From: an uncultured Lachnospira sp. | GTDB taxonomy: Bacteria; Bacillota; Clostridia; Lachnospirales; Lachnospiraceae | DNA: 64,000 nucleotides | Direction of reading: 5' to 3' | Assembly: GCA_946186125.1 (NCBI GenBank) | Contig: CAMHLZ010000012.1 | Location: 1 to 64,000, forward strand | Part shown: positions 2 to 11,157 of the stretch, piece after piece | Position numbering within the stretch: the stretch's first letter is position 1 | Layout: every line of letters begins with the position of its first letter | Position numbers and translations under genes: made by a program | The notes under the pieces: model-generated | Told to the model about the DNA's origin: nothing | The model's input: only the letters and a program-made list of their open reading frames with translations | The model's database searches: none

Positions 2-2338
2 AAATTAGTTGAAATCATGACCGAGCTTATATCAGTAATGAAAAAGATTACAACGAATCTGGAAGACAAGAAAAAGTTGCAAATTCAAGTCCAGTCGCTA
101 CAGGAAAAACTAAGGAAAGAGATTGGAAATTTATTTCCTAAAAAAGAATGGGAGTTATTGCAAGGAAAAAATGTTTTTAAAAAAAATGGTCCATTGAGTA
201 AAATTTGTATATCAGAAGAGGAATATAAAAGCATACAATGTTATGATGGGTTTATGACATTTTTTAAAAAATATAATGAAACAAGAGCAAATATATATAG
301 TACAGAAGAAAAAAGTACGGCAATTGCTTTTCGAATTGTGAATGATAATCTTCCAAAGTATGTGAGAAATAGTGATAATTTTCAGCAGATTTGTAAAGAA
401 ATTCCAGAAGTTGTAGAACAAGTAAAGAAAACGTATAATAATTTGACAAGTTATTTTGAAATTGATTGTTATCCAAGCCATTGGGGACAGAAGGGAATTG
501 AAAAATACAATTCTGTAATTGGTGAAATGAATAACCAACTAAACCTTGCGATACAAAAAAGAAAAGAATCAAAATTTAGAAAATATAAGATGCAGGTGTT
601 GTATCAACAAATTCTTAGTGATAGAGAAGAACAGTCTTTTGTGTATCAACAGGATCAGGAGGTTTTTCATGCAATAGATGAACTTTCAGAAGTTGTTGAA
701 AGTAGTGAGTTAAACGAGGCAATTAAATTGTTGAACTCTCATAACATTAACGAAACTGAAATATTTATTCCATATGCAAAATTAGCTGAAGTATCTGTGA
801 AAATGAAAATGGGGTGGAATGGATTAGAGCAGGCATTTATAAATGATTTGCAACAACAGTATCCAAAGAAAGACTATGAAAAATTGGTAGAACAATTAAA
901 AAAAGAGAAAAAAGTTTTTTCATTGCAAGAAATAAAAGAGACTGTTATGACTATTAAACATGAAGAAGATTGGCAGTTTGTCAGTTTATTAGATTGTATT
1001 GAAAGTTATCAAAAACAATTGAAAGAAACAAAAGATGCATATATAGAATATGCAAAAACATACGCAGATTCAAGCAGTTCATCCTTACAAGGAAATGATG
1101 TAGCACCGATAAAAGCATTCTTAGATAGTTGTCTGCAATTGGTACAATGGTGTAAACTGTTTGAATATTCTGATTTGTATGGTAATAGAGATAAAGTTTT
1201 TTATGGAGGAGCAGACACAATCTTACTTATATTCGAGTCACTAAATTCTGTATATAATAAAACGAGAAACTATGTGACTATGCGACCGGGACAAGCTAGA
1301 AAGATGCATTTAATGTTTGATTATCCGGAATTTGGTGGTGGTTTTAGCAATAGTAAAGTGGACTCTTATGGTACAATTTTGCTTCGTGATGAAAAAAATT
1401 ATTATTTAGCAGTTATAAAAAAAGGGATAAAATTATCATTGGAAGATATTACAAATGAAAATGATTGTTATGAACGTTTAAGTTATAGGTTGTTTCCTGA
1501 TGTAAAAAAAATGATACCGAAATGTTCTATTAGCATGAAAGAAGTTAACTCTCATTTTGAGAAATCAAATGATAATTATAAGATTATGAACGAAAAATAT
1601 GCAAAAGAATTACTTGTGGAAAAAGAAGATTATGAACTTTACTTTGTAAATCTTTATGATGATAAGAAGAAGTTTCAAAAAGATTATTTGAAAAAAACCG
1701 GAGACGAAAAAGGGTATAGAAAAGCATTAGAACGCTGGATTCGTTTTTGTATTCGATTTTTACAAGCCTATAAAAGCACAAAGGATTATGATCTTAGTGA
1801 ACTGGAGCCAATTTCTAAGTTTCGTTCCTTAGATGAATTTTACGATAAATTGAATACTTTATTATACAAAATAGAGTGGAAAAATATATCAAGAAAACAA
1901 ATTAAGCAGGAGTCATCTGGTCAGTTGTATTTATTTGAATTATATAACAAAGATTTTTCAGAACATGCAAAAGGTAAGAAAAATCTATTTACATTGTATT
2001 GGGAACAAATTTTTAGGGTGGAAAATTTAAAGAATCCTGTAATTAAATTATCTGGTGGTGCGGAGATGTTCTATCGTAAGGGTGCCATTCAAAAGCCATA
2101 TGTACATAAAAAAGGTTCCATGTTGGTGGATAAAACTTTTATTGATAAGAACGGAGTAAGAAAAACACTTCCAGATAATGTTTATAAAGAGTGGTCAGAT
2201 TTTATGAATAAAAAGATAAAATCTGTCAGCCAGGAGGCAAGTAAATATAAAGATTTTGTCAATTGTCATGAAGCGAAATATGATGTTACAAAAGATATAC
2301 AACAGCTCAATTTGAATTTCATGTTCCTATTACTTTGA
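2..2338 (+). pseudogene. cas12a: Cas12a (Cpf1), N-terminal fragment; 5' end outside window
   Basis: This is the recognition lobe and WED region of the type V-A CRISPR effector nuclease. The frame is open to the first base (K-L-V-E-I before the first ATG at 17), and the protein enters mid-REC1, so roughly the first 60-90 residues lie outside the window. Recognisable Cas12a segments include FRIVNDNLPKY, QLYLFELYNKDFS and the late WED stretch HKKGSMLVDKTF. The frame is lost after KYDVTKD and ends in the non-homologous tail IQQLNLNFMFLLL. The expected continuation (RYTTAQFEFHVPITLNY) is read in the -1 frame from base 2293. A normal Cas12a has about 1200-1300 residues, and the two pieces plus the missing start add up to that. 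As it stands this piece has no RuvC nuclease and no downstream WED processing residues. An assembly error is possible but a 7-base loss is an unusual one. Confidence 0.93.
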
Positions 2339-3612
2339 ATTATTCAGCATTAGGAAAAGGACAAATAAATGATGGTGTATTAGATTGTCTATCTCAGAAA
2401 GAAAAATACAATGTAATTGGAATTGATCGTGGTGAAAGGAATTTGCTTGCATACTGTGTGGTAAATCAAGATGGTCATATTTTAGAACAAGGAACATTTA
2501 ATACAATTGTAGGTGGAAATAATCAAGAAGTAGATTATAAACAGAAGTTACAGGAAAAAGAAGTTAATCGACAAGAAGCCAGAAAAGAATGGAAAAACAT
2601 CGGAAAAATTAAAGAATTAAAGAGTGGTTATTTATCTCAAGTTATCTATCAATTAACTCAAATGATGGTAAAATATGATGCTATTGTCGTTATGGAAGAT
2701 TTAAATGTTGGATTCAAACGTGGTCGATTTAAAGTTGAACGACAGGTTTATCAAAAATTCGAAAAAGCACTTATTGATAAATTAAATTATTTAGTAACCA
2801 CAAAAGATGAAAATCAACATGGTATAGCAGGTAGCGTTAGTAATGCATATCAATTGACTGAAAAATTCAAATCATTTAAAGATATGGGAAAACAAAATGG
2901 AGTGTTATTTTACGTGCCTGCAGGTTATACCTCGAAAATTGATCCAACTACCGGATTTGTAGATGTTTTGAATCGAACAGGATTAACAAATACTACTGCA
3001 AGAAAAGAGTTCTTTGCAGCCTTTGATGATATTTTCTATTCTAAAGAAGATGAAATGTTCGCATTTTCTTTTGATTATAGTAGGTTTAAAGTGTTTCAGG
3101 AAATGCATAGAAAAAAATGGACAGTTTACACGAATGGTATTAAATACATATATTCATCTAAGCAAAGAAAAGAAATTTTAATAGATGTTACAAGAATGAT
3201 GAAGGAAGTATTAGAAAAGGCTGGTATAACAAACTACGATAATCTATATCGTCAAATATTGAATATTGAAGCAGATAAAACGCATGCTGAATTTTGGAAA
3301 TCGTTACAATATGTATTTGAAAGAACCATGCAATTAAGAAGTAGTCAAACTGATAATGGAGAGTCAAATTTGGAAGACAAGATAATATCACCGGTTAAAA
3401 ATGTTGATGGAGTGTTTTATGAGTCAAATGGAGATTATCATGATCTTACAAATCCGGCAGATGCTGATACAAACGGAGCCTTTCATATTGCAAAAAAAGG
3501 ATTGCTTCTTGTTGAAAATGTAAAGAAGACAGGTAGAGGAGCAAATGGAAAATGGCATCCTAAAACGAAAAACATTTCTAATAAGGATTGGTTTGCATTT
3601 GTTCAAAAATAA
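2335..3612 (+). pseudogene. cas12a: Cas12a, C-terminal RuvC/Nuc fragment (out of frame)
   Basis: This is the nuclease lobe of the same cas12a. All three RuvC motifs are intact: IGIDRGERNL (Asp near residue 31), VVMEDLNVGFKRGRF (Glu near residue 121) and NPADADTNGAFHI (Asp near residue 378). The Nuc-domain stretch MQLRSSQ...ISPVKNVDGVFYES keeps the conserved Arg, and the end (NKDWFAFVQK) is the usual Cas12a C-terminus. Homologous sequence extends upstream in this frame to about 2293 (RYTTAQFEFHVPIT), ahead of the TTG that the ORF track calls a start. There is no Shine-Dalgarno sequence before that TTG, so separate translation is unlikely. The intact catalytic residues suggest that the break is recent. 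Confidence 0.93.
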
Positions 3613-8767: not shown

Positions 8768-9058
8768 TTAGATTTTTTTTGATAAAGATGTTAAAAAATC
8801 TGTTATATCTTCATCTGTATGATTATGATTTTTTAGCCAATTAATAGAGTTTGTTATTATTTCCGGCGGAATTTCATCAGGGTTATAATTGGCCTTTAAT
8901 TCTATAGCTTCTTTGATCCATCCACCCAAAGTTTTACCGTCTGCTTTAGCCCTTGCTTTTAAATATTCATGGTATTCTTTGGGAACATCTAAAGGAATAC
9001 GACTATAGTTATTCTTTTGCCACTTGATGCTAGCCTTTTTTTGAGCTTCAGTTGACAT
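8768..9058 (-). CDS. Ribbon-helix-helix (Arc/CopG-like) DNA-binding protein
   Basis: This 96-residue protein begins MSTEAQKKASIKWQKNNYSRIPLDVPKEYHEYLKARAKADGKTLGGWIKEAIEL. The beta strand (SRIPLDVP) followed by two helices is the RHH layout of antitoxins and plasmid or ICE repressors. The C-terminal part (NWLKNHNHTDEDITDFLTSLSKK) may bind a partner. The start is supported by AGGAGGTGACAAT directly upstream and by a good promoter on the same strand. No toxin ORF is adjacent on the same strand, so it may be a solitary or orphaned antitoxin. Confidence 0.75.
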   Translation of the reverse strand: MSTEAQKKASIKWQKNNYSRIPLDVPKEYHEYLKARAKADGKTLGGWIKEAIELKANYNPDEIPPEIITNSINWLKNHNHTDEDITDFLTSLSKKI

Positions 9059-9185: not shown

Positions 9186-9217
9186 TTGACATATTATCGG
9201 TATACCGATAATATAAT
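9186..9217 (+). promoter_or_regulatory. Promoter with a perfect 24-bp palindromic operator
   Basis: TTGACA (9186-9191) and TATAAT (9212-9217) are 20 bases apart, and a perfect 24-bp palindrome (9191-9214, half-site TATTATCGGTA) fills the spacer and touches both boxes. A protein bound there would block or distort the promoter. Without the IS66 relic this promoter would lie directly in front of the HTH-nucleotidyltransferase operon, so the HTH protein is the likely ligand. The long spacer with central dyad also resembles MerR-type promoters, but no MerR gene is nearby. Confidence 0.65.
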
Positions 9218-9218
9218 A

Positions 9219-9226
9219 TTAAGAGG
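9219..9226. repeat. Target-site duplication, left copy
   Basis: TTAAGAGG immediately outside the left end of the IS66 relic is repeated exactly outside the right end. Eight bases is the duplication length known for IS66-family elements. Confidence 0.9.
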
Positions 9227-9916
9227 GTAAGCGCAGAATAGCAGCCCGTTCCACAAATTACTCTTTTTATGAGATAATATATCTTGCTACCAAAAAGTAT
9301 TTACTTCCCGTTTTTAACAGGATGCATAAAAAACTGTTAAAACGAGATATCATTTACGCTGACGAGACAACCTGTCAGGTGTTACGCGAAGATGGAAAGG
9401 AAGCACAGTCAACTTCCTATATGTGGATTTATTCTACCGGAACAGATGGCCTTCCTGTTGTTTTATATGAATACCAACCGGGAAGAGGTGGTGCATATCC
9501 ACAGGAATTCCTGAGTGGTTTTCGTGGAAAACTACAGTGTGATGGTTATCAAGGCTACAATAAAGTAGAGGATGTTCAGTTAATCTGCTGTAGTGCACAT
9601 GCCAGAAGAAAGTTTTATGAAGCACTTTCAGCAGAGAAGAAGAAAACCCTTAAGCTGTTGGATGTGAATTCCAAGGAAACAATCAAGGAGCCTGAGATTC
9701 CTCAGAAAGACCTTGAAAAATATATTCCTGCTGAAATAGGAGTGGCTTATTTCAATAAACTCTTCTATTTGGAGAAAACCTATAAAGATTTATCTCCTGA
9801 AGAGCCTCAGGGGTAATTGATGTGGAAACAGTTACGGTTGAGAATCATCCGGAACTGCCACTTAGCAAAAAATAAAGTAACAGGTAAGTATGTGCGTTGT
9901 ATTATTCATCGCTTAC
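9227..9916 (+). mobile_element. Internally deleted IS66-family insertion sequence (690 bp)
   Basis: The ends are imperfect inverted repeats: the left reads GTAAGCGCAGAATAGCAG and the right, reverse complemented, reads GTAAGCGATGAATAATAC. GTAAGCG is the usual IS66 tip. A perfect 8-bp duplication flanks it. Inside, only parts of the IS66 transposase remain, and no tnpA or tnpB accessory genes are left, against about 2.5 kb for a full element. Both ends survive, so it could in principle be mobilised in trans. It separates the palindromic promoter from the ribosome site of the next operon. Confidence 0.92.
9322..9816 (+). pseudogene. IS66 transposase remnant (tnpC)
   Basis: The 164-residue fragment carries the middle of the DDE transposase: MHKKLLKRDIIYADETTCQVL with the first catalytic Asp, then KLQCDGYQGYNKV with the second, then CSAHARRKFYEAL. 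Homology-like sequence begins a little upstream in frame (PVFNR before the ATG). The protein breaks off at LSPEEP. In another frame just downstream, ending at TAA 9873-9875, I read IDVETVTVENHPELPLSKK, which looks like the authentic IS66 transposase C-terminus. An internal deletion has therefore removed the segment with the catalytic Glu, and the N-terminal half is also gone. Confidence 0.9.
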
Positions 9917-9924
9917 TTAAGAGG
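9917..9924. repeat. Target-site duplication, right copy (overlaps ribosome site)
   Basis: This is the second copy of TTAAGAGG. It contributes the AGAGG of the ribosome binding site AAGAGGTGATAAGT in front of ATG 9933, so the duplication preserved the translation signal of the downstream gene despite the insertion. Confidence 0.9.
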
Positions 9925-9932
9925 TGATAAGT

Positions 9933-10457
9933 ATGGATTTTATTACAGAATTAAAAAAACAAAATATGAGTATTAGAATTTGTTCTCAAAAAAGTGGAAT
10001 TCCTTATGCGACACTTTATCCAATAATAAAGGGAAAAGTAGACATTGGAACATGTGCATATTATACGGTTGAAAAACTAGCCAAAGCTTTAGGTTATCGC
10101 CCTGATCAAATAGTATACCATAAAGAAGACTTCCAAACTTTTAGAAATAATCTTCATCATCAAATTAAAAGAGATGAATTACAAACAGTACTTAGTATAA
10201 TTGAAAATGAAGATGTTGAGTATTATAGGTTCCATAGCGATTTTATTAAAATGATGTATCTTGTTGCAACAGTTGATTATATTAGTAAAAAATATGATAT
10301 TCCATTATGTGATAAATATAATGATATACGGCTACTAAAGCTAGAACAACCGTACTTTGTCGGAGATTCAGCATTAATAAAAAATGAAAGCAGGCAAGTT
10401 ATTAAAGAATTTTCTAAGTATAATATCATTGAAGGAGATTTATATGATGCTGTATGA
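9933..10457 (+). CDS. HTH-domain protein, putative antitoxin/regulator of a two-gene defence-like module
   Basis: This 174-residue protein has an N-terminal XRE-like helix-turn-helix (about residues 5-58: NMSIRICSQKSGIPYATLYPIIKGK ... VEKLAKALGY) and an uncharacterised C-terminal region of about 110 residues. ATG 9933 is chosen over GTG 9924 because AGAGGTGATA precedes it at normal spacing, whereas GTG 9924 lies inside that ribosome site. It overlaps the nucleotidyltransferase gene by 14 bases, so translation is probably coupled. The arrangement (regulator first, nucleotidyltransferase second) resembles AbiE-like and MNT-type toxin-antitoxin pairs. By analogy it may bind the 24-bp palindrome at 9191-9214. 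Function is inferred from architecture only. Confidence 0.75.
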   Translation: MDFITELKKQNMSIRICSQKSGIPYATLYPIIKGKVDIGTCAYYTVEKLAKALGYRPDQIVYHKEDFQTFRNNLHHQIKRDELQTVLSIIENEDVEYYRFHSDFIKMMYLVATVDYISKKYDIPLCDKYNDIRLLKLEQPYFVGDSALIKNESRQVIKEFSKYNIIEGDLYDAV

Positions 10458-11157
10458 TAAAAAAATAACAAAAGAAAATGCATATTTTATTATTAATCAA
10501 TTCGCAAAAGAATACAGAAAAGAACTTGGGAAAATCCCTGGGGAAATAATAATTGTAGGTGGTGGTAGTATTATGTTAAATTATAAATTTAGAGATACTA
10601 CACAAGATTTTGATGTGATATTAAGAACTTCATCAGAAATTAAAGATGTTATCAAGAAATTTGCAGATAAATATGAATTACCAAGGGATTGGATGAATTC
10701 AGACTTCAAAAATACTATATCGTATTCTGATAGACTTTCTGAAGTATCAAAACATTATCGAACACTTAATAATGGAACACTTGAAATACGGACTGTTTCT
10801 GGTGTTTATTTAATAGCAATGAAGCTGAGAGCACATAGGGATTATAGAAATGATATTTCCGACGCAATAGGTATTTTGATTGAGGAAATGGAATCTGGAA
10901 ATTCAATTTCTTTTGAAGATATTCAAAATGCATATAAACGATTATATGATAATGATTTACCTTCAGGACTAATAGAAAGATTAAACATAATTTATAATAT
11001 GAATATCAATGAACTGAAATCCTATTATAAAAAGCAATTGTTATTAGAAAAAGAAATAGGTTCACGGGTTATTTCATATATCGACAATGGTGCACACATA
11101 AATACCCATAATGTCGATTATGTCATAAATAAAATTAAAGATAAAATGAAAAAGTAA
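10444..11157 (+). CDS. Nucleotidyltransferase-fold protein (DUF6036/AbiEii-like), putative toxin
   Basis: The N-terminal half has the minimal nucleotidyltransferase signature: IIIVGGGSIMLNYKFRDTTQDFDVIL, that is G-G-G-S followed by D-x-D in QDFDV. The later segment AMKLRAHRDYRNDISDAIGIL is typical of the DUF6036/AbiEii-like group. Such enzymes transfer nucleotides to RNA or protein partners in several abortive-infection and toxin-antitoxin systems; the substrate here is unknown. I choose ATG 10444 (GAAGGAG at 10431-10437) over the upstream ATG 10384, which lacks a ribosome site and would overlap the HTH gene deeply. It gives 237 residues. Confidence 0.75.
   Translation: MMLYDKKITKENAYFIINQFAKEYRKELGKIPGEIIIVGGGSIMLNYKFRDTTQDFDVILRTSSEIKDVIKKFADKYELPRDWMNSDFKNTISYSDRLSEVSKHYRTLNNGTLEIRTVSGVYLIAMKLRAHRDYRNDISDAIGILIEEMESGNSISFEDIQNAYKRLYDNDLPSGLIERLNIIYNMNINELKSYYKKQLLLEKEIGSRVISYIDNGAHINTHNVDYVINKIKDKMKK

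Follow-up and report, generated by a model that had tools for sequence, protein, structure and literature searches.

Insertion sequences (IS) that land between a promoter and a ribosome-binding site are a known kind of event, in which leader length changes while promoter and ribosome-binding site survive. Non-autonomous, deleted derivatives of IS elements are likewise known, and an 8-bp target duplication is usual for transposition of the IS66 family. Within that family, ISPsko1 has ends of the form GTAAGCG... (PMC12888890), and an 8-bp direct repeat has been reported for ISDge4 (PMC12898284). For the operon studied here, the described system used for comparison is AbiE, whose type IV toxin-antitoxin operons encode AbiEi and AbiEii (PMC3985639).

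The present analysis concerned an IS66 insertion in the window, that is, the whole 64,000-nt stretch of DNA that was analysed. A preliminary description had placed an IS66 relic between a palindromic promoter and the ribosome site of an operon, and all of the sequence elements that it named were found where it had placed them, although the reading of several of these has changed. The features of the locus are as follows.

9186..9214, + strand: promoter, with -35 TTGACA (9186-9191), a 17-nt spacer and -10 TAATAT (9209-9214); hexamers and spacing recur in the four close relatives (L007-L010) and in most of 25 distant homologs.
9191..9214, no strand: perfect 24-nt palindrome ATATTATCGGTATACCGATAATAT (100% inverted repeat) with core CGGTATACCG, between -35 and -10; predicted operator for autoregulation by the HTH protein.
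9219..9226, no strand: target-site duplication, left copy, 8-bp TTAAGAGG.
9227..9916, + strand: IS66-family element, 690 bp, internally deleted, its transposase remnant oriented as the operon.
9227..9240, + strand: left terminal inverted repeat GTAAGCGCAGAATA, in agreement with the end of the intact relative L053.
9278..9283, + strand: first internal deletion junction, with a loss of about 1,820 bp relative to the full element; relic positions 1-52 and 56-578 correspond to element positions 1-52 and 1873-2398.
9322..9816, + strand: tnpC transposase remnant, open, 164 aa, part of the DDE domain, lacking a Shine-Dalgarno at usable spacing.
9804..9812, + strand: second internal deletion junction, about 415 bp missing, with CAGG microhomology, located by alignment to the intact relative.
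9903..9916, + strand: right terminal inverted repeat TATTCATCGCTTAC, in agreement with the intact relative.
9917..9924, no strand: target-site duplication, right copy TTAAGAGG, whose AAGAGG supplies the 5' end of the Shine-Dalgarno.
9919-9927: Shine-Dalgarno AAGAGGTGA, its 5' part from the right duplication copy; L008 has TAAGAGGTGAT there.
9933..10457, + strand: HTH (Cro/C1-type) regulator, 174 aa (Pfam HTH_26, E=5e-5), predicted antitoxin and autorepressor.
10444..11157, + strand: DUF6036 nucleotidyltransferase, 237 aa (Pfam DUF6036, E=3e-10), its first 14 nt shared with the HTH gene, its GG and DxD residues invariant; predicted toxin.

Upstream of the operon, a divergent 96-aa gene (8768-9058, - strand) is transcribed away from it and, at the thresholds applied, matched nothing in Pfam, NCBIfam or PADLOC. 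A Cas12a gene runs past the contig start at its N-terminus and is split into overlapping frames at 17-2338 (profile positions 84-860) and 2335-3612 (profile positions 872-1286) by a frameshift at 2300-2340, just before the first RuvC motif, that is either a mutation or an assembly error.

The relic is firmly a member of the IS66 family. Its 14-nt terminal inverted repeats begin GTAA and are complementary at 12 of 14 positions, and the duplication is exact and directly abuts both, so that the length, GTAAGCG ends and flanking duplication first described all hold. The transposase piece, already reported to point in the direction of the operon, matched Pfam DDE_Tnp_IS66 (PF03050, E=1.1e-35, above cut-off) as a partial domain only, and its score of 120.5 bits against NF033517 lies under the full-length cut-off of 180, as expected because it is a fragment. 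The closest relative at the DNA level was an intact IS66 element of 2,925 bp (G034:C29:236-3160, here L053), which lies in a different genus of the same bacterial family and has three ORFs, one of them a 579-aa transposase. The relic matches positions 1-52, 1873-2398 and 2816-2925 of this element at 94-95% identity, and therefore lacks two stretches of the full-length form, of about 1,820 bp and about 415 bp; it is internally deleted, as had been proposed, but in two places and not one. Since its terminal bases agree with the ends of L053, the relic boundaries are fixed independently of the target duplication, and the probability of an exact 8-bp direct repeat at ends so defined is about 4^-8 by chance. 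What it has in common with IS66-family insertion sequences are the GTAAGCG ends, the 8-bp target duplication and the tnpC DDE transposase remnant, whereas it is only 690 bp long, and the two deletions have removed tnpA and tnpB wholly and left tnpC incomplete, which makes it an IS66 derivative and not an autonomous IS.

Between the relic transposase piece and its intact relative, dN was 0.03 and dS 0.16, against 0.089 and 0.16 for a different, decayed IS66 copy in a congener (G004:C18), which suggests that most of the relic's history passed in working elements and that its decay is recent. Elsewhere in the genome that carries the relic there are three further IS66 transposase matches, likewise partial (G000:C26:3979-4338, C2:141824-142120 and C32:36344-36544). 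The possibility that L053 itself sits at a similar promoter (left flank GCCGATAATATA) was considered and rejected, because the sequence before it has neither a -35 box nor a palindrome, and the 8-bp flanks on its two sides differ from each other.

Relatives lacking the insertion, which the preliminary description had proposed as a check, were found by protein search. Four close homologs of the HTH gene (L007-L010; 77-80% identical), two of them in one MAG, lie in unrelated neighbourhoods, and all have the same promoter-palindrome before the same HTH gene but not this IS66 element. In L007, L008 and L009 the promoter, palindrome, Shine-Dalgarno and ATG are contiguous, each time with 27 nt from the end of the palindrome core to the ATG. 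In the window this distance is 725 nt, and subtracting 698 bp, the combined length of the relic and a single copy of the duplication, leaves exactly 27, which bears out the earlier suggestion that such removal restores the order of the signals. Across the last 50 nt ahead of the ATG, the joined window sequence aligned with the three relatives ungapped at 72-78% identity; farther out, identity was only 30-38% (background). These empty sites are direct comparative evidence for insertion at that point. None of the congeners has the HTH gene, and for this reason the compared genomes include no same-genus empty site. The fourth relative, L010, has a core-to-ATG distance of 95 nt, owing to a leader extension of its own of about 68 nt between operator and ATG (L010:1762-1856), which is hairpin-forming with a perfect 15-bp inverted repeat; its nucleotidyltransferase gene has been deleted down to its two ends.

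The duplicated bases do include the Shine-Dalgarno core, as had been noticed, and the right copy is followed by TGATAAGT up to the ATG at 9933. The GTG at 9924, in a further correction to the preliminary description, falls inside the Shine-Dalgarno; the conserved start of the HTH gene is the ATG, from which all close relatives read M-D-F. The promoter also required partial revision. Its TTGACA and 24-nt palindrome stand, but the TATAAT at a spacing of 20 nt, although present in the window, is not conserved in the relatives, where the conserved sigma-70 fit is TTGACA-17-TAATAT. In most of the more distant HTH homologs, at about 25-35% identity, TTGACA and TATAAT are retained on either side of a 17-nt spacer with CGGTNNACCG or a near variant. 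The promoter-palindrome was also put to a strict test, in which 10/12 hexamer positions and no fewer than 6 of the 8 palindromic pairs had to match. It was passed by 18 of 29 homolog upstream regions, compared with 1 of 2,900 mononucleotide shuffles, and it is on this account that the 24-nt palindrome is most simply explained as the predicted operator of the HTH protein itself. In several of the homologs failing the test CGGTCAACCG is visible by eye, and the CGGTNNACCG-type core is kept in position among homologs.

The operon had been called defence-like, but this was an inference only; neither gene matched the PADLOC models of anti-phage defence, and toxin-antitoxin-like is the better description. 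The nucleotidyltransferase has a GG-x14-DxD core with glycines and aspartates invariant in the homolog alignment, and DUF6036 was its sole Pfam match at E<=0.001; a structure search at the same threshold returned nothing, the best hit being DNA polymerase beta (0.06). For the HTH protein, a fold search found no match at E<=0.001, and its solved-structure relatives by profile include Aca11 and SinR. HTH homologs are present in 29 of 299 family genomes, and one distant homolog was found in viral contigs; DNA searches of plasmid and phage records gave no match, nor did protein searches for the HTH protein in plasmids and for the nucleotidyltransferase in phages. In four loci (L010, L033, L044 and L047) an intact HTH gene stands beside a nucleotidyltransferase gene that has been deleted, truncated or frameshifted. 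Such an asymmetry is expected of a toxin-antitoxin-like pair, but finding the loci by their HTH gene, as was done here, favours the pattern. The operon is a putative toxin-antitoxin pair, with the HTH protein as predicted antitoxin and the nucleotidyltransferase as predicted toxin.

In its layout it resembles AbiE (PMC3985639), with two adjacent genes, the DNA-binding protein first and a GG...DxD nucleotidyltransferase second, and with inverted-repeat DNA in the promoter, represented here by the predicted operator palindrome that is conserved in place. The differences are considerable: the first protein is a Cro/C1 HTH (HTH_26), whereas AbiEi is a COG5340 winged HTH; the nucleotidyltransferase is DUF6036, whereas AbiEii is DUF1814; and there is one compact palindrome between -35 and -10 in place of the two spaced repeats of AbiE. 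Membership of AbiE was rejected, as neither protein belongs to the AbiE families by Pfam and only the layout is alike. DUF6036 was not named in the literature searched, and the HTH-DUF6036 pair is apparently an undescribed operon family, marked by a conserved promoter-operator signature.

The best explanation of the locus, with a probability of roughly 0.72, is a recent and near-neutral IS66 insertion that has lengthened the leader while autoregulation and translation signals were kept, the operon most likely still being transcribed. An IS66-family element transposed into the short interval that separates the -10 box from the start codon of the HTH-DUF6036 operon, which is probably autoregulated, made an 8-bp target duplication and, either before it landed or afterwards, shed about 2.2 kb of internal sequence. 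Promoter and predicted operator remain intact upstream of the relic, the duplication supplies the HTH gene with an intact Shine-Dalgarno, and transcription from the operon's own promoter would read through the relic, probably still under repression by its own HTH product. Because the -10 position puts the expected transcription start near 9221, just upstream of the relic, the leader would now be about 712 nt long, compared with about 14 nt before insertion. Transcription from the operon's own promoter is most likely because promoter, operator and Shine-Dalgarno are intact and no recognisable terminator lies in the relic, a sequence scan having found no intrinsic terminator on either strand. 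Predicted accessibility of the Shine-Dalgarno is 0.44 with the relic and 0.45 without it, and that of the ATG 0.94 and 0.89, respectively. Both operon genes are open, with low dN at saturated or near-saturated dS against relatives, a low dN/dS that reflects mostly pre-insertion time and is not proof of current use. Silencing or re-tuning had been suggested earlier, and the evidence points rather to preserved expression signals.

The main rival, which appears unlikely, is that the operon has been shut down, or at least strongly damped, by the insertion, with Rho or polarity termination in an untranslated relic leaving the module off. The leader is indeed probably untranslated, because AACAGG lies directly against the ATG (9322) of the relic transposase ORF and leaves it no usable Shine-Dalgarno, and a 690-nt stretch with a G+C content of 39%, against 27% for the operon, could provoke Rho-dependent termination or decay; silencing would also be tolerable for a toxin-antitoxin pair, as both genes would be off together. 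However, both operon genes are still intact, the relic's promoter-like matches on the antisense strand are weak, and intrinsic terminators are lacking, although scans for these are blind to Rho-dependent termination or decay. A somewhat less probable alternative is that the 690-bp form is a mobile, non-autonomous MITE-like element that transposed already deleted, which would fit the two intact ends and the target duplication. Yet the relic is single-copy in its own genome, where no complete IS66 transposase was matched that could mobilise it, and a second 690-bp form with the same junctions was found neither in viral contigs nor in partly overlapping draws of genomes from the family (299) and the order (392).

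Slightly further down the scale is an outward promoter in the relic that would now drive the operon, free of operator control. A promoter-like match that points into the operon, GTAACA-17-TATTAT, is present at the right end of the relic (9877-9905), but at 9/12 it is not above background, since such matches are expected by chance in an AT-rich stretch (a mean of 4.3 promoter-like matches in shuffles), and the intact relative has a still weaker match, GCAACA, at the same spot. With no convincing promoter within the relic, the separate internal promoter that could have overturned the preliminary description did not appear. The same is true of a palindromic promoter driving a different gene. Beyond a distance of about 700 nt in the window, nothing favours a palindrome and promoter that belong to something else, with the position of the relic a coincidence, and this idea is effectively refuted by the relatives: the same promoter-palindrome precedes the same HTH gene in L007-L010 and in most distant homologs, in unrelated neighbourhoods. 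The recent, near-neutral insertion is therefore preferred. Compared with IS insertions in promoter-to-ribosome-site intervals in general, it differs in showing no sign of a new promoter or of selection on its expression; a literature search on IS insertions in toxin-antitoxin leaders returned nothing specific.

The event itself is of an ordinary, known kind, but it is unusually well documented by empty sites, and provides a very clean case of an IS between an operator-promoter and a ribosome-binding site, in which the translation signal was saved by the target duplication. Tracing the insertion also revealed the conserved promoter-operator signature of the HTH-DUF6036 operon family. A bolder reading, for which the odds are rather poor, takes the HTH-DUF6036 pairs as a widespread toxin-antitoxin family that has so far escaped description and carries its compact operator in the interval from -35 to -10, and holds that the relic-lengthened leader has shifted expression here; if true, the locus would represent a natural experiment in which a toxin-antitoxin operon has been tuned through a leader insertion.
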